A DNA stretch of 64,000 bases from Mycobacterium adipatum (GTDB lineage: Bacteria > Actinomycetota > Actinomycetes > Mycobacteriales > Mycobacteriaceae): assembly GCF_001644575.1 (NCBI RefSeq), contig NZ_CP015596.1, positions 5,580,001 to 5,644,000 on the forward strand. Direction: 5' to 3'. The notes below the pieces were generated by a model. That model was not told the DNA's origin, did not search any database, and worked only from the letters and a program-made list of their open reading frames with translations. Shown here piece by piece: positions 54,503-62,808 of this stretch. Numbering within the stretch: position 1 is the stretch's first letter; each line of letters opens with the position of its first letter. The position numbers and the translations under genes were made by a program.

Positions 54503-55096
54503 GTGGCTGTCGTACCAATCCGCATTGTGGGAGATCCCGTCCTGCACACTCCGACCACTCCGGTGCCTGTCGCCGCCGACGGAACGCTACCGGCCGAACT
54601 GGCCGCGCTGATCGCCGACATGTACGACACCATGGACGCAGCAAACGGTGTCGGCCTGGCCGCCAACCAGATCGGTCGCACCGAGCGCGTCTTCGTCTAC
54701 GACTGCGCAGAGGACCGTGGCAAGACCGCGCGCCGCCGCGGGGTGGTCATCAACCCGGTGCTGGAGACCTCCGAGGTCCCCGAGACCATGCCCGACCCCG
54801 ACGACGATGACGAGGGATGCCTGTCGGTGCCCGGCGAGTCGTTCCCGACCGGGCGTGCGGAGTGGGCCCGGGTCACCGGCCTGGACGCCGACGGCTCCGC
54901 GATCACACTGGAGGGCACCGGGCTGTTCGCCCGGATGCTGCAACACGAGACCGGCCACCTGGACGGGTTCACCTATCTGGATCGTCTGATCGGCCGGCAC
55001 GCCCGCGCCGCGAAGCGGATGGTGAAATCGAACAAGTGGGGGGTCCCGGGATTGAGCTGGTTGCCCGGCGAGGATCCCGACCCGTTCGGCCACTAG
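54503..55096 (+). CDS. def: Peptide deformylase
   Basis: A 197-residue metalloenzyme that removes the N-formyl group from nascent proteins. All three motifs are present: [10 protein letters not shown] (residues about 50-59), EGCLSVPG (about 109) with the metal Cys, and QHETGHLDG (about 149), a HExxH-type site with both metal His. GTG at 54503. First gene of the operon; the next gene starts 2 nt after its stop. Confidence 0.96.
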
Positions 55097-55098
55097 CC

Positions 55099-55986
55099 GT
55101 GCCTTTCGCGGCATCCCTCGGCGCCCGGGTGTCCCTGCGTTACCGAATGTCCGATGGCCTGACCGATGTGGTCGGCCATCTGGAGGCACTCGCCCCGATG
55201 GTGATCGTCCGTCCGAAATCCGGTGACGACGTCGAGATCGATCCCGCCGATGTGGTGTCGGTGCGCGAGCTGTCGCACCGCCCGGTGCGCAACTCAGAGA
55301 TCCGGGCACTGGAACACGCCGCCGCCCTGGCCTGGCCGGGCACCGAGCAACACTGGCATGACGGCTGGTTGCTGCGCGCCGGTTCCGGGCATACCAGCCG
55401 GGCCAACTCGGCTGTCCCACTGCTGTTCTCGTCATCGACGGAGGTGCTGTCGGAGATCGTGTCGTGGTACGCCGAGCGTGGCCTGGCACCGTGGCTGGCC
55501 CTGCCGGAACGGCTGCTGCCGATCAAGGCCCCCGGGGTCAAACCGACCCGTGTGCTCGTGCGCGATCTCTCCCCCGCGCCGTCCGTCCCGGGCGTCGCGC
55601 TGGCAGAGGTGCCCGACGAGCAGTGGCTGCGGGTCTACGCGCGCGACGTGCCGCCCGAGATCCTCACCGCCGTGCTGGATGGCGCGCTGACGTTCGCGAC
55701 CGCAGGCGCCGCCGTCGGGCGCGGCGCGGTGACCACCGCACCGGACGGTGTCCGGTGGCTCGGCGTGTCGTGCGTGCGTGTCGCGGAATCGGCGCGGCGC
55801 ACCGGACTGGCCCGCATGGTCTGCTCGGCGTTGCAGAACTGGGGCGCCGAACAGGGCGCGACCCGCGCGTATGTTCAGGTGCTCGACGAGAACCTGCCGG
55901 CGTTGCGGCTCTACGAATCGCTGGGCTTCCGGCTGCACCACCGTCACCGCTACGTGCGCGCAGATAGCCTCGTGGCCCATGCGTGA
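55099..55986 (+). CDS. GNAT family acetyltransferase (Rv0428c-like)
   Basis: A 295-residue protein. The C-terminal GNAT domain has the acetyl-CoA loop VRVAESARRTGLARMVCSAL (residues about 225-244) and the closing VLDENLPALRLYESLGFRLHHRHRYV. The N-terminal part (about residues 1-130) is a separate beta-rich domain ending in the WPGTEQHWHDGWLLRAG stretch. Substrate unknown. GTG at 55099, 2 nt after def; its last 8 nt overlap the jetA start. Confidence 0.88.
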   Translation: MPFAASLGARVSLRYRMSDGLTDVVGHLEALAPMVIVRPKSGDDVEIDPADVVSVRELSHRPVRNSEIRALEHAAALAWPGTEQHWHDGWLLRAGSGHTSRANSAVPLLFSSSTEVLSEIVSWYAERGLAPWLALPERLLPIKAPGVKPTRVLVRDLSPAPSVPGVALAEVPDEQWLRVYARDVPPEILTAVLDGALTFATAGAAVGRGAVTTAPDGVRWLGVSCVRVAESARRTGLARMVCSALQNWGAEQGATRAYVQVLDENLPALRLYESLGFRLHHRHRYVRADSLVAHA

Positions 55987-57379
55987 GTTACTCGATGCCA
56001 ACCGTGAGGTGCAGGGGTCGCGCGCCATGCGGCTGCTGGCCACCTCCAACCTGGCCGTGTACGCCACGCTGATGGAGCGCCACCTGTTCGACGGACTGGT
56101 CGGTGAGACCGAACTGGTGGTCCGGCTGGAACGCGACCTGGAGGCGCTGGGCGAGACCGGCGAGCCGTCCGGTCTGGCGCTGATCAAGACCTGGGCCAGC
56201 CAAGGCTGGCTGCACCGCGTCGCGAGCGGGGACCGCAACGTCTGCTACCTGACCCAGGACGCGCGCCGCGCGCTGGACTTCGTGCGCGGTATGCGCCGCA
56301 ACGACACCATCGCCACCGGCGGATCCATCAACGGTATCGCCTCCCGGCTCAAGCAGGTCGCCATCCGCGTCGGCGATGACCCGGACCGGATCCGGGCCGG
56401 TATCGAGGCCGAGATCGCGGCGCTGCATGCCGAATTGGACGAACTCGACGCCGGCACCCGCCCCGAGCCCGATGTCACCGCCATGTACGACGAGGCCCGC
56501 GCCATCGCGATGCAGATGGAGCGGCTGATCACCGACATCGGCCTGTACGGCACCATGATCGAGCAGGCGACCGCGGCGCTGGATGACCCGATCGACACCA
56601 ACGTCGAATACCGCGACCGGCAGCGTCAGATGTACGCCGACTATCAGGCGGCCTGGGATTCGGCCGGCCGCGACTCTCATCGCGCGTTCCTGCGGATGAT
56701 CAACGACCCCGATCAGCGCGCCGAGTTCGAGGCCGATATCGCCACCGTCGCTGCCACCCTGCCCGAACTGGATCCGGCACTGCGCAAGGTGATGGCCGGG
56801 TTCTTCGAACTGGTCGGCCACCAGATCGACGAGGTCGAGCGCATCCAGCAGCGCTGCGCGCAGCGGGTCAAGAGGTTCACCGCGTTCGGCACCCTGGAGC
56901 AGACCCGTGGGGTGGCCCGCCAGCTCAACGAGGCCATCGGCGCGGCGCGGGCCCTGCTCAAGGAGTCCCTGACGGACTCCCGGCTGGCCATCGAGGTCCC
57001 GCTGGCCCGGCATGCGATCAGCTCGGTCGGTGCGCTGAGCTTCCGGATCAACGACCTGTCCGCACCCAAACCCGCCGAGCCGGCCGACGGCATGGTGGAC
57101 CTGACCACGTTCTCCGCACTGGCCACCCAGGTCGACGCACCCGCCTTGTCGCAGCTGCTGAATTCATCACTGCCCGTTTCCCTTCCGGAGGCCCTGGGCA
57201 TGCTGGAGGCACCGTATCTGGGTCATGTGATCGTGCTGTGGTCGTGGGCGCTCAAGCAACCGTCCACCACGGACGCAGAACCGGTCACGGTCCGATTCCA
57301 CTCGCTGGACGGCCATGACCGCGAGATGGAGGTCCCGCACCTGATGTTCACCGAGCCCGTCCTGGATGGCGCGTCATGA
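55979..57379 (+). CDS. jetA: Wadjet/Mks kleisin-like subunit JetA (MksF, DUF3375)
   Basis: A 466-residue DUF3375 protein, the kleisin-type (MukF-like) subunit of Wadjet/MksBEF SMC complexes. The N-terminal winged-helix region (SNLAVYATLMERHLFDGLVG, WLHRVASGDRNVCYLTQDARRALDFV) is followed by long helices with coiled-coil character (residues about 140-340) and a C-terminal winged-helix-like part. ATG at 55979 lies inside the GNAT gene end, giving an 8-nt overlap; it overlaps jetB by 4 nt. Length is near the family norm. Confidence 0.9.
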   Translation: MRELLDANREVQGSRAMRLLATSNLAVYATLMERHLFDGLVGETELVVRLERDLEALGETGEPSGLALIKTWASQGWLHRVASGDRNVCYLTQDARRALDFVRGMRRNDTIATGGSINGIASRLKQVAIRVGDDPDRIRAGIEAEIAALHAELDELDAGTRPEPDVTAMYDEARAIAMQMERLITDIGLYGTMIEQATAALDDPIDTNVEYRDRQRQMYADYQAAWDSAGRDSHRAFLRMINDPDQRAEFEADIATVAATLPELDPALRKVMAGFFELVGHQIDEVERIQQRCAQRVKRFTAFGTLEQTRGVARQLNEAIGAARALLKESLTDSRLAIEVPLARHAISSVGALSFRINDLSAPKPAEPADGMVDLTTFSALATQVDAPALSQLLNSSLPVSLPEALGMLEAPYLGHVIVLWSWALKQPSTTDAEPVTVRFHSLDGHDREMEVPHLMFTEPVLDGAS

Positions 57380-58044
57380 CCGACACCGCCACATCGAAAC
57401 CGGAAATCGATTTCGCGTCCCTGCCCGAGGTGGACCAGTCCGGCCGGGCCCCCCAGCAGCGGCGCCCCCGGTTCGACGGTGATGTCAGCGCCATGCCCGA
57501 CCGGGCCTGCTGGGCGCTGCAACACCTGCTGACCCGGCGCTATGTCAGCAGCGAGTCCGACCCGGACATCTACAGTTGGATCCTGGAATACCGCACCGAC
57601 CTGTCGGTCCGGTTGTCGGAGTTGGACCTGCAACTGCGCATCACCGAACAGGTCGACATCGCCTACATCGAGCAGGCGCGCTACGAACCCACCCGGGGCG
57701 CCAAGCTGCTGCGCCGCGAGCCGTTGGGCACCTACGACTCCATCTTGGCGCTGCACCTGGCCCAGATGATGCGCGCCGGTGGGGATTCCAGCTTCCTGAT
57801 CACCCGCGACGAGATACACGGACTGTTCTCCGGTGTGCTCAATGACACCGACCGCGACACCGTCACCTTCACCGCCCGCATCGACGCCGCGATCGCCCGC
57901 CTCGCCGGGCTCGACATCCTGCGCAAGACCCGCGATGACGAGGACAGCTACACCGTCAGCCCGGTGATCACCGCGATCATGACGGCCTCGGTGATCACCG
58001 AACTGCAGCAGCAGTTCGAGCTGTTGAAGGGCGGTTCGGAATGA
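57376..58044 (+). CDS. jetB: Wadjet/Mks KITE-like subunit JetB (MksE, DUF4194)
   Basis: A 222-residue DUF4194 protein, the MukE-like KITE subunit that binds the kleisin. After a disordered N-terminus, two winged-helix folds are indicated, from [14 protein letters not shown] to [25 protein letters not shown] and [11 protein letters not shown] to [24 protein letters not shown] overlaps on both sides tie its translation to jetA and jetC. Confidence 0.9.
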
Positions 58045-61000
58045 GTGAGCAGTTCCACCTCTCCCGGCTGCAGGTGATCAACTGGGGCGTCTTCGACGGC
58101 TACCACTCGGTGCCGATCAGTGCCGGCGGAGCGCTGATCGCCGGGGCCTCCGGAAGCGGTAAATCGTCACTGCTGGATGCCATTTCGCTCGGATTCCTGC
58201 CGTTCAACCGGCGCAACTTCAACGCCTCCGGCGACAACACGGCCGCCGGCTCCAGCGCCGGCCGACGCACCGTCGACAAGTACGTACGCGGGGCCTGGGG
58301 CCAGCGCAGCGATGCCGGGGTCAGCCAGGTGATGTACCTGCGCGGTGACGGCACCACCTGGTCGGCGGTCGCGGTGACCTACACCAGCAACACCGGCCGG
58401 TCGATCACCGGGCTGGTGCTCAAATGGCTCACCGGTGAGTCACGTTCGGACTCGTCGAGCAGATTCGTGCTCGGTGACGGTGATCTCGACATCGAAGAGG
58501 TGTGCAACCGTTGGGCCGCCGGACGTTTCGACGCCGGGGCGTTCAAAGACCAGTGGCGGTTCTCCACCAAGGTGGAGTCCCAGTACCTGGCCCAGTTGTA
58601 CGCCTCCATCGGGATCCGCGCCTCCGAAGCCGCCCAACAGCTGCTCGGCAAGGCCAAGTCACTCAAGAGCGTCGGCGGTCTGGAACAGTTCGTCCGCGAT
58701 TTCATGCTCGACGAGCCCGACAGCCTGGCCCGGCTCCCCGAGGCCCTCAAGCAGATCGACCCGTTGGTGGAGGCGCGCGAACTGCTCGCGGTCGCGCAAC
58801 GCAAACGCAGGATCCTCGGCGATATCGAGACCATCCAGGCCCGCTATGCCTCGGAATCCTCGGATCTGGGCATCATCGACCTCGTCGACGCGCAGATGGT
58901 GCGCGCCTATACCGATCACGTCCGGCTGCAGCAGTGCCCGGCCGAGGTCGAGAATCTGGACGGCACCATCGACCAGCTGGAGAACGAGTATGCCGATCTG
59001 ACCAGGCAGCTCAATCTCGCCAAGGCCGAAGGCGATTCGCTGAACGCCCAGATCAGCGGCGCCAGCACCAATGTCGGTCCGCTGCAGTCCCAGGTTGCCG
59101 CCGCCGAGGCCCAGGCCGAGGAGATCGCCCGGCGCCACGGGGCCTATGCGGAGATGGTGACCGCGCAGGGTTTGCCCGTGCCCGACAGTGCCGACGAATT
59201 CTGGAACCTGCGTGAGGATCTCAGCAAGCAGGCCGCCGGGCTCGCGGTCAAACTGGAACGCGGCCGGGAAGCCTCGACCGATGCCGAATACGCCCAGAAG
59301 GCGGCGCGCATCGCCCGCGATCACGCAGCCAAGGAGCTCAAGCGTGTCGAACAGGTCGGCTCGGCGTTGCCGGAGTTCGCGGTCACCATGCGCGAACACA
59401 TCTGCACCGCGGTGGGTGTGGACCCGTCAGCGCTGCCCTATGTCGCCGAGTTGATGGATCTGCGCCCCGAGGAGACCAGATGGCGGGCCGCGGTGGAGAA
59501 GGTGCTGCGGTCGGTCGGGTTGCGGCTGCTGGTTCCCGATGAGCACTACGCCAAGGTGCTGCGCTTCGTCAACGAGACCAACATGCGCGGGCGGCTGGCG
59601 CTACACCATGTGCGGATCAACGCCCCCGACCGCCGCCCCGAGCCGAACACGTTGGCCGGCAAGTTGTTCGCCGTCAAATCAGAGCATCCGTGCGCGGCCG
59701 AGGCGCTGGACATCCTCAGCGCCGCCGGCGATCACATCTGCGTGGACACCCCGGACCTGTTCGCCCGGTACCGCCGTGCCGTCACCGATACCGGGTTGTA
59801 CAAGGATTCCGACCGGCTGGCGATCAAGGACGACCGCCGGGCGCTGAAACCCTCCGAGTACATCTACCAGGGCGACATCACCGCCAAGTTGGATGCGCTG
59901 ACCGCCGAATTGGCCGAGGCTGAACAGGTTTTCGAGCAGGCCCGCCAGGCCGCCGACGACATTGCCGCCGGTCGGCAGCAGTGGCGCGACCGGGCGGCGG
60001 CCTGTAAGGCGATCTGTGAGCAGTTCCCGCAGTGGAGCCAGATCGACACCGAGACCGCCGAGGGTCATGCCGACCGGCTGCGTGAGCAGTTCGATCTGCT
60101 GATGGCCGACAATCCCGATGTCGAGGCGCTCAGCGCCCGCGCCGAGGAATGCTGGATCGACATCCAGACCCTGATGACGCGCCGTGGCGCCATCGCGACC
60201 CGGCGTGACGATCTGGACGGACGTCGCACCCGGCTGATGGATCTGCAGGACCGCCTCGCGCCGGCCGAGATCACCGATGCCGCCACCGACCTGCTGCGCC
60301 GCTACTCCGCGCAGGTCCCGATCGCCCTGGAGCTGCTCAATCCGGAGCCGCACCGCGAGGCACTGCTGGCCGCGATCCGCCGCGAGCGCGACCAGCTCAC
60401 CGAGAGCCGCAGGCGCTCCCACGAGGAGCTGGCCCGCATCATCGCCACGTTCGACACATCGTTCCCCGATGCGATTCCGAACGACTCCGAGGATTTCGAC
60501 GAGCGGGTCCACGATTACGTGGCGGTCTGCCGCCACATCGACGAGCGGGAGCTACCGGACGCCTACGACCGGATGATGCGCCTGATCACCGAGCAGGCCC
60601 CCGACGCCATCCTGACCTTGCACCGGGTAGCCGAACAGGAGACCAGGCGGATCAGCGACCAGATCGCCAGGGTGAACACGGGTCTGGGCGCGGTGGAGTT
60701 CAACCGCGGCACCCGGCTCACGCTGCGTGCCACCCCGCGTAATCTGGTCGCCGTCGCCGAGCTGACCGATATCGTCAAGTCCATCTCGCGGCGTATCGCC
60801 GAGGTCGGCCTCGGTGACAAAAAGGCGATCCTCGACCAGTACGCCGACATCCTGCGGCTGCGGAACCGGCTGGCCGGCAACACTCCCGAGGATCGGGCCT
60901 GGACCCGCGACGCCCTCGATGTGCGCAACCGTTTCACCTTCGACTGCGCCGAGTGGGATGTGCACAACGAGGAGCTGATCCGGACGCACAGCAATGCCGG

Positions 61001-61379
61001 CGACAACTCCGGTGGTGAGCAGGAAAAGCTGATGGCGTTCTGCCTGGCCGGCGCGCTCAGCTTCAACCTGGCCAGCCCCGAAAGCGGGGACAACAAGCCG
61101 GTTTTCGCGCAGTTGATGCTCGACGAGGCATTCTCGAAATCCGATCCGCAGTTCGCCCAGCAGGCCCTGCAGGCGTTCCGCAAATTCGGGTTCCAGCTCG
61201 TCATCGTCGCAACGGTGCAGAACGCCACCACCATCCAGCCCTATATCGACGGGGTGGTCATGGTGTCCAAGACCGAGGCCAGCGGCCGCAACGCACGCCC
61301 GGTGGCCTCGGTCACCACCAAGACCATCAGCGATTTCACCGCGCTGCGCAAAGAACTCAAGATCCCGGAGCCCGTCTGA
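58041..61379 (+). CDS. jetC: Wadjet/Mks SMC-like ATPase JetC (MksB)
   Basis: An 1112-residue SMC/MukB-like ATPase. Walker A is GASGSGKSS (residues 35-43). Two long coiled-coil arms (about 280-450 and 620-860) flank a hinge-like middle (about 450-600). The ABC signature [17 protein letters not shown] is near residue 989, Walker [12 protein letters not shown] near 1025, and the H-loop position VATVQNATT near 1055. It should drive ATP-dependent DNA loop extrusion with JetA and JetB. Full length with no visible defects. No JetD follows; the stop overlaps the xthA start by one base. Confidence 0.93.
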
Positions 61380-62161
61380 TGCGTATTGCCACCTGGAACG
61401 TCAACTCCATCCGGACCCGGGTGGACCGGGTGACCGACTGGCTGTCGCGCGCTGACGTCGACGTGCTGGCCATGCAGGAGACCAAGTGCACCGACGCACA
61501 GTTCCCGGCGATGCCGTTCGCGGCGCTGGGGTACGAGATCGCGCACGTCGGGCTGAACCAGTGGAACGGTGTGGCGATCGCGTCGCGGGTCGGTCTGGAC
61601 AATGTCGAGATCGGCTTCGACGGCCAGCCCGAGTGGCAGGCACTGGTGGAGGCCCGGGCGATCGGTGCGACGTGCGGCGGGATCCGGGTGTGGAGCCTGT
61701 ATGTCCCCAACGGCAGGACCCTGGCCGATCCACACTATCCGTACAAGTTGAGTTGGCTTGGCGCACTGCGTGATACCGCGTCACGCTGGATCACCGAGGA
61801 TCCCTCGCTGCCGGTGGCACTGGTCGGCGACTGGAACATCGCCCCCACCGACGAGGACGTCTGGGATCCCGCGTTCTTCGAGGGCTCCACCCACGTCTCC
61901 GCACCGGAGCGGGCCGCCTTCCAGGCCATGGTCGACGCCGGCTTCACCGACGTGGTGCGCCCGTTCACGCCGGGGCCGGGGGTCTACACCTACTGGGATT
62001 ACACCCAGTTGCGGTTCCCGAAGAAGCAGGGCATGCGTATCGACTTCATCCTCGGCTCCCCCGCGCTGGGTGAGCGGGTGACGCACGCCGAGATCGTGCG
62101 TGAGGAGCGAAAAGGTAAGTCGCCCAGTGACCACGCACCGGTACTGATCGAGGTGAACTGA
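61379..62161 (+). CDS. xthA: Exonuclease III (AP endonuclease family)
   Basis: A 260-residue exonuclease III/AP endonuclease for base-excision repair. It shows [14 protein letters not shown] (Asn 8), MQETKCTD (catalytic Glu near 37), YVPNGR (about 110), VGDWNIAPTDEDVWD (Asp/Asn near 150), RIDFILGSP (about 225) and SPSDHAPVLIEV (catalytic His near 252). ATG at 61379 overlaps the jetC stop. In M. tuberculosis the orthologue follows the GNAT gene directly; here jetABC sits between them. Confidence 0.95.
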   Translation: MRIATWNVNSIRTRVDRVTDWLSRADVDVLAMQETKCTDAQFPAMPFAALGYEIAHVGLNQWNGVAIASRVGLDNVEIGFDGQPEWQALVEARAIGATCGGIRVWSLYVPNGRTLADPHYPYKLSWLGALRDTASRWITEDPSLPVALVGDWNIAPTDEDVWDPAFFEGSTHVSAPERAAFQAMVDAGFTDVVRPFTPGPGVYTYWDYTQLRFPKKQGMRIDFILGSPALGERVTHAEIVREERKGKSPSDHAPVLIEVN

Positions 62162-62808
62162 TGGATCTGCTCCCCAAGGTCGAGTTGTCCGACAATGACG
62201 TCGCCGAGGTGCTGGCCCGCGCGGCGGCGCTGTCCGGGCTCATCCTGGACGTGCTGGCACAGTTCGATCCGCTCGGGGTTCGCCGGCACCTGGAGATCCT
62301 CGAGGTGCCCGGGACGCAGGCCTGGGAGGCCAAGGATCGCGCCGCACGGATCAGGTGGTGGATCCGGCGGGTGGGTGCGCTGGACACCGTCGCGGTGGCC
62401 TGGCCCGGCGCCCTCGGCGCGATCGCGAGCCGGTTGCCGGTCCAGGATCTCCTGGGGTTCTCCAGTCAGACACTCATCCTGTGCGCCGTGGCGCGCGAGT
62501 ACGGGTTGACCGACCGGCGGGACCAGGTGCGGATGCTGGCCTCGGTGTTGTGCGGCCGGGAGATCCCGGACCCTCCGCTGCCGGAGATCGACGAGCCGTG
62601 GCCGGATAACGTCGTACAGAAACTGTGGCACCTGACCGGGATTCTCAACGCCATCGGCGACGAGCTCGGCAGGCGGCCGCACCCGCGGCGGATCTTCCGC
62701 TATCTCGGCATGGTCCCGGTGGCCGGGGCGCTCGCCGCCTATCTCGGTGAGTTCGGCGCGCTGCACCGCGCCGCCGAGGCGGCCGAGTTGTGGATCACGC
62801 GGGTTTGA
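62161..62808 (+). CDS. Conserved hypothetical protein, last gene of the jet operon
   Basis: A 215-residue, mostly helical protein that I do not recognise. Two hydrophobic stretches are visible: VAWPGALGAIASRLPVQDLLGFSSQTLILCAVA (about 78-110) and FRYLGMVPVAGALAAYLGEFGAL (about 180-202), suggesting membrane association. The Gly/Ala-rich C-terminal pattern recalls EcsC-like proteins only loosely. ATG at 62161 overlaps the xthA stop by one base, so it is translated with the operon. It has none of the features of JetD. Overlaps the convergent methyltransferase gene by 14 nt. Confidence 0.7.
   Translation: MDLLPKVELSDNDVAEVLARAAALSGLILDVLAQFDPLGVRRHLEILEVPGTQAWEAKDRAARIRWWIRRVGALDTVAVAWPGALGAIASRLPVQDLLGFSSQTLILCAVAREYGLTDRRDQVRMLASVLCGREIPDPPLPEIDEPWPDNVVQKLWHLTGILNAIGDELGRRPHPRRIFRYLGMVPVAGALAAYLGEFGALHRAAEAAELWITRV

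Follow-up and report, generated by a model that had tools for sequence, protein, structure and literature searches.

Background

Three types of Wadjet have been distinguished, and JetD counts among the defining parts of the system (PMC10586767). Type I is JetABCD, the EptABCD of M. smegmatis and the MksBEFG of C. glutamicum. The same source regards MksBEF as a likely product of JetD loss: in P. aeruginosa, MksBEF is thought to be JetABCD minus JetD and helps to organise the chromosome. MukBEF, in turn, replaced Smc-ScpAB in enterobacteria (PMC10586767). The C. glutamicum complex targets plasmids and has no role in chromosome folding (PMC7083940), and its nuclease is MksG, described in a paper that also covers EptC of M. 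smegmatis (PMC10123090).

Wadjet is common in this part of the bacterial tree, having been reported in 42% of actinobacterial genomes (PMC10482375) and, in a PADLOC survey, in 662 of 665 genomes of the M. kansasii complex (PMC11316565). DUF4194, DUF3375 and AAA_29 are among the domains tabulated in PMC10551460, in what is apparently a table of rapid growers; PMC12287153 and PMC10512200 are further relevant literature. The literature searched, judged mostly from listings, showed no description of JetABC without JetD in mycobacteria.

Here we describe such a set, lying in a 64,000-nucleotide stretch of the Mycobacterium adipatum genome (contig NZ_CP015596.1, positions 5,580,001 to 5,644,000), which we call the window and in which positions are counted from its first letter. 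By JetD-less we mean a jetABC set with no jetD alongside. The best reading of the sequences is that type I Wadjet has been converted, independently and more than once, to a nuclease-free, MksBEF-like SMC complex.

Genes of the locus

The set lies within a cluster of housekeeping genes, and its features are as follows:

54503..55096, + strand: def (peptide deformylase), at the head of the host cluster (PF01327, 131 bits)
55096..55986, + strand: GNAT acetyltransferase, Rv0428c-like (PF24553, 298 bits), its 3' 8 nt shared with jetA
55979..57379, + strand: jetA (DUF3375), kleisin subunit, 466 aa (Pfam DUF3375, 343 bits; PADLOC JetA1, 822 bits)
57376..58044, + strand: jetB (DUF4194), KITE subunit, 222 aa (Pfam DUF4194, 130 bits; PADLOC JetB1, 371 bits)
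57466..57483, + strand: PRFDGD codons, a nearly invariant short motif of the JetB N-terminal tail, kept without JetD
58041..61379, + strand: jetC, SMC ATPase subunit, 1112 aa (Pfam AAA_29 and SbcC_Walker_B; PADLOC JetC1, 2035 bits)
58143..58169, + strand: Walker A codons of jetC (GASGSGKSS), conserved across relatives' loci
61005..61028, + strand: ABC signature codons of jetC (NSGGEQEK), motif intact
61113..61133, + strand: Walker B codons of jetC (LMLDEAF), motif intact
61379..62161, + strand: xthA, exonuclease III (TIGR00633, 267 bits against a cut-off of 99)

The three jet genes are uninterrupted open reading frames on the + strand, and they carry what is expected of a type I Wadjet core: PADLOC JetA1, JetB1 and JetC1 in order, and a JetC with all three of the motifs that we take to be Walker A, signature and Walker B intact. 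Coordinates and sequence give overlaps of 8 nt (GNAT/jetA), 4 nt (jetA/jetB), 4 nt (jetB/jetC) and 1 nt (jetC/xthA), the last being shared by the jetC stop codon and the xthA start codon. Pfam, PADLOC and the sequence itself thus bear out the initial annotation, which had described full-length DUF3375, DUF4194 and SMC-like genes with intact JetC motifs, joined to GNAT and xthA by overlaps of 1-8 nt. It had also stated that the window holds no JetD-like gene, and indeed neither JetD_C (PF09983) nor DUF3322 (PF11795) matches anywhere in it; a nuclease too diverged for both models would escape such a search.

In comparison with solved structures, residues 3-1076 of JetC align with E. coli JetC (8as8_A, E 4e-62). 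A JetB profile matches solved JetBs (E 6.7e-9 and 2.2e-8), a JetA profile found nothing credible in the PDB, and neither JetA nor JetB as a single sequence has a PDB match. The best fold matches of the AlphaFold models are a Wadjet chain for JetB (8as8_C) and a chain of the E. coli JetABCD core for JetA, followed by MukE and MukF chains. These models are of low confidence (mean pLDDT 54 for JetB and 52 for JetA, best TM-scores about 0.3 or less by query), so their fold matches only agree with the other evidence.

No NCBIfam model matches JetA or JetB, and a scan of the window region for sigma-70 promoters and terminators gave nothing exceeding shuffled sequence. Directly after xthA lies a 215-residue gene (62161-62808) with no Pfam match, found in the same place in five relatives in which jetA is likewise fused to GNAT.

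Distribution

The JetD-less set is widespread, occurring in nearly half of the sampled related species. By hand count, a JetC of this family (at least 54% identity) is present in 92 of 198 genus genomes, a number that takes in a contig-edge fragment (G008), two split genes (G019 and G031) and one gene with a stop (G044). JetD has no match in 81 of these 92 genomes. Three further genomes hold only remnants (G158, G028, G113). Any JetC match at all is found in 114 of the 198 genomes, and the JetCs at 50-51% identity (G172, G180, G085, G163) have an adjoining jetD.

In a sample of 201 family genomes, JetC is matched at E 1e-100 or better in 51, two of which have an adjoining jetD (G200, G362); a jetD match is present in 34 of the 201. 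This strict cut-off omits most JetD-bearing types, so the 51 genomes are not a census of both kinds. We also looked at 80 named loci, the best 80 of 139, of which 77 are titled Mycobacterium or Mycolicibacterium, one is from a Mycobacteriaceae bacterium and two are from bins (Actinomycetota and Acidobacteria). In the sequence examined, up to 9 kb on each side, all 80 lack a JetD match. The JetD-less set is present in M. colombiense and, with an interrupted jetC, in M. montefiorense, both presumably slow growers.

Matches were found in 16 of 72,556 plasmid records and one of 50,697 phage records, none reaching 60% identity, which gives no support to a plasmid or phage origin of the cassette. 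One small plasmid, a 22-kb replicon of Tsukamurella tyrosinosolvens (L231), carries a partial JetD-less set in which jetA is short, jetB is present, jetC is annotated as two pieces and jetD is absent.

Probable loss of JetD

JetD appears to have been lost at least three times, independently. A tree of 71 JetCs, 47 without JetD and 24 with it, requires three changes between the two labels, all forced by supported branches, against a mean of 20 for shuffled labels. It is a quick tree with long branches and two flagged joins, its rows were chosen by hand among the fetched loci, and L109 and L201 were omitted because their JetC is split. The JetD-less JetCs form three sets: one from other genera, one whose sister group is JetD-bearing (L108 and L266), and the large set to which the window belongs.

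Three label changes could also represent one loss followed by two regains. However, the JetDs of the nearest JetD-bearing kin (L107, L108/L266 and L109) form one clade (support 100/99), and their branching matches that of the L107 and L108 JetCs. We therefore favour loss over regain, i.e., JetD was probably present in the ancestors of the JetD-less sets.

Position between GNAT and xthA

The position of jetABC between GNAT and xthA is derived. It is seen in at least eight of the 198 genus genomes (a hand count among the matches listed). Among 20 species that have an examined GNAT locus and carry jetABC elsewhere, GNAT and xthA are about 4-53 nt apart in 17, and no xthA lies within the 1.5 kb examined in the other three. 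In the best 80 of 139 loci, jetA is fused to GNAT in ten and separated from it by a spacer of 2-4 kb in four. The insertion proposed in the initial annotation is therefore supported. What the annotation had not seen is how widespread the set itself is.

On a 26-row JetABC tree, two changes account for the fused state and one for the spacer state, in a clade that also includes three loci at another site. A CCTATCTTGGACCGTC-like motif (up to 4 mismatches of 16), looked for in the 140 nt before the aligned start of JetA in the 77 examinable loci of the 80, is present in all four spacer loci, in none of the ten fused loci and in 60 of the 63 others; control windows gave 19 of 1540. The motif is promoter-like and conserved where the cassette lies elsewhere, and from this we infer that the cassette arrived with its own promoter, which was lost on fusion to GNAT.

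Flanks of the free-standing loci vary in the 80%-identity group, and no conserved neighbour that might be a new effector was seen among those fetched. The 59%- and 55%-identity groups each have a fixed neighbourhood that looks metabolic by eye (one MaoC dehydratase by Pfam). In L110 and L111, GNAT and jetA are separated by a gene of about 500 residues, rich in Pro, Ala and Thr and encoded on the opposite strand; the 317 residues scanned have no Pfam match.

Predicted function

JetA, JetB and JetC are the three core subunits of type I Wadjet without JetD alongside. The complex that they are predicted to form would be loaded on DNA and would extrude loops, driven by ATP hydrolysis, as solved homologues and the literature suggest, and it would do so without cutting. 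Its substrate could be the chromosome, or else extrachromosomal DNA that it compacts instead of cutting. We favour the chromosome because most genomes with the set have no JetD, because the set is linked to housekeeping genes here, and because its divergence tracks that of core genes: JetC distances correlate with the def, GNAT and XthA distances at a Spearman coefficient of 0.79 (22 genomes, 231 non-independent pairs). On balance, JetABC is probably a nuclease-free, MksBEF-like SMC complex with a condensin-like role. The condensin-like reading of the initial annotation is thus supported, in the form of a predicted three-subunit complex with no JetD of its own.

However, a Wadjet motor need not act on the chromosome, given that the MksBEFG of C. 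glutamicum targets plasmids and has no role in folding. JetABC might instead defend against plasmids without cutting them, by reeling in and compacting small circular DNA, thereby silencing plasmids or causing their loss when the cell divides. The core is, after all, that of an anti-plasmid system, and its genes are lost or broken in some genomes; such loss and breakage are common for defence systems. On the other hand, a defence cassette would not usually diverge like core genes or be so tightly linked to def, GNAT and xthA. The C. glutamicum complex is reported to affect plasmid copy number (PMC10123090, PMC7083940), but reported restriction needs MksG there (PMC10123090) and all four genes in B. 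subtilis (PMC10586767). We therefore consider non-cutting defence unlikely and retain chromosome organisation as the preferred reading.

XthA and a possible link to DNA repair

Given its position, XthA might be co-transcribed and work with JetABC in this clade, either in place of the lost nuclease or as a repair partner. The overlap of jetC with xthA is kept in most fused relatives, and jetC also extends into xthA in a second fused lineage. Against this, the fused loci L152 and L153 have a gap or inserted genes before xthA (the inserts of L153 look unrelated by eye), and XthA is an exonuclease III of the ordinary kind, matched in 197 of the 198 genus genomes. Moreover, xthA is near jetABC in only 14 of the 80 named loci (the best 80 of 139), all of them at the GNAT position. 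The replacement of the nuclease by XthA, which the initial annotation had raised as a possibility, is therefore not supported as a general rule among these loci, and even a partnership confined to this clade seems improbable.

Another repair gene, for an AlkZ-like DNA glycosylase, lies downstream of jetC at -4 to +39 nt, as judged from our own gene calls, in nine of nine JetD-less loci from four other genera (L241-L247, L250, L251; PF06224, 240-274 bits, in all nine scanned), and it is absent from two loci of a fifth genus. The same nine loci have a superoxide dismutase-like gene upstream. A defence DNA glycosylase has been found near Wadjet genes, and XthA is not required for it (PMC11078745). 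It is conceivable, if rather doubtful, that after JetD loss the Wadjet motor became a loop-extruding partner of base-excision or crosslink repair, with XthA here and the AlkZ-like glycosylase elsewhere encoded at the former gene position of jetD. Most other JetD-less loci have no recognised repair gene adjoining jetC, so we treat the repair link as a lead only.

The distant jetD

The M. adipatum genome has two jet systems, one with JetD and one without. Across the whole genome (6.05 Mb in two contigs), PF09983 and PF11795 each match once, in the same gene (C1:4616315-4617418), which lies about 1 Mb from the jet genes of the window. This sole jetD is the last gene of a separate jetABCD (PADLOC JetA1, JetB1, JetC1 and JetD1), the JetC of which is 28% identical to that of the window. 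This complete, divergent type I system occupies L002 11307-17863 (C1, about 4.616-4.623 Mb), and its surrounding 19 kb also holds an integrase-core transposase-like gene and other genes that look defence-like by eye. A canonical Smc is encoded in the genome too (1069 bits). The second contig of the assembly (G000), C2, is about 250 kb by subtraction of C1 from the total and is possibly a large plasmid.

The initial annotation had suggested that the nuclease might be encoded elsewhere, in which case a JetD supplied from a distance would arm the JetABC of the window as a split Wadjet. A genome-wide search did find a jetD, but inside its own divergent jetABCD. Across the genus, jetD has a match in 30 of 198 genomes, and it occurs together with JetD-less JetC in 11, where 13.9 are expected (Fisher p 0.32), so co-occurrence is at chance level and not the constant pairing that a split system implies. 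By coordinates, jetD adjoins the JetD-less jetC in none of these 11 genomes. Co-occurrence only at chance, together with the membership of jetD in another system, makes the distant jetD unlikely as the missing partner, and the lack of a JetD match in 81 of 92 set-bearing genomes makes the split reading far-fetched.

What speaks for a partner of some kind, apart from the mere presence of a jetD in the genome, is the JetB tail. A 26-residue block that includes PRFDGD is nearly invariant in JetD-less JetBs and their nearest JetD-bearing relatives. It is among the two best-kept stretches in four JetD-less groups (0.95, against group means of 0.72-0.85), scored at sites common to the JetD-bearing L107 and L108. 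The JetD-bearing JetB of this genome has no such tail, and in the AlphaFold model JetB residues 1-41 are a low-confidence part. The N-terminus of JetB has an IFDR motif that is contacted by JetD (PMC10586767). PRFDGD could not be equated with this motif; the JetB of a P. aeruginosa plasmid has LFDQYR further upstream. It is therefore only possible that the conserved tail is a retained dock at which an unrecognised partner still binds.

Selection

The JetD-less genes are under strong purifying selection, as judged by substitution rates. Against five fused relatives, dN/dS is 0.056-0.124 for jetC, 0.064-0.108 for xthA and 0.241-0.280 for GNAT; against L110 the values are 0.114, 0.141 and 0.317, respectively. 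All 138 loci have Walker A (132 match the first pattern and six have GGSGSGKSS), and 136 of them have signature and Walker B, the exceptions being L225, which lies at a contig end, and L144, in which the gene is truncated; some genomes are counted in both sets that make up the 138.

The set is nevertheless dispensable, because some genomes carry interrupted or fragmentary copies. Low dN/dS combined with such copies indicates a set that is kept by selection and can yet be lost. In L166, L167, L182, L191, L193 and L195, one to several genes that look unrelated by eye split the jet genes and jetC is open; one inserted gene in L191 is nuclease-like by eye. That the set is merely a decaying Wadjet remnant on its way out, as the interrupted jetC of L144, L145 and L201 and the remnants in G158, G028 and G113 might suggest, is very hard to credit given a jetC dN/dS like that of xthA, ATPase motifs intact in nearly all loci and a jetC that is open where the jet genes are pushed apart (L182, L191, L193, L195).

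Comparison with known systems

Type I Wadjet is matched in its JetA1/B1/C1 models, gene order and ATPase motifs, and the window JetC matches solved JetC over its length; the difference is that the window operon has no jetD. The likeness to P. aeruginosa MksBEF lies in make-up: both are three-subunit, MukBEF-like sets without a nuclease gene that occur beside a canonical Smc. However, JetB is a DUF4194 protein that scores 21.6 bits against the MksE model PF21980, below its cut-off of 27. We therefore take this likeness to be convergent, with a common lineage not established. MukBEF is more distant still: MukE and MukF chains match the low-confidence folds of JetB and JetA less well than Wadjet chains do, and MukBEF replaced Smc-ScpAB, whereas here the canonical Smc coexists with JetABC.

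These loci have a practical consequence, namely that mycobacterial genes annotated as "Wadjet" are not necessarily those of a plasmid cutter, as PADLOC gives the names JetA1, JetB1 and JetC1 to JetD-less proteins as well. They also provide repeated, densely sampled cases in which an immune SMC machine has lost its weapon and its motor is still selected. Because close relatives exist with and without JetD, the route from Wadjet to condensin proposed for MksBEF and MukBEF (PMC10586767) becomes testable. Set beside these systems, JetABC is a real, widespread and selected nuclease-free variant of type I Wadjet, which has probably arisen repeatedly and in this clade is inserted in a housekeeping cluster.
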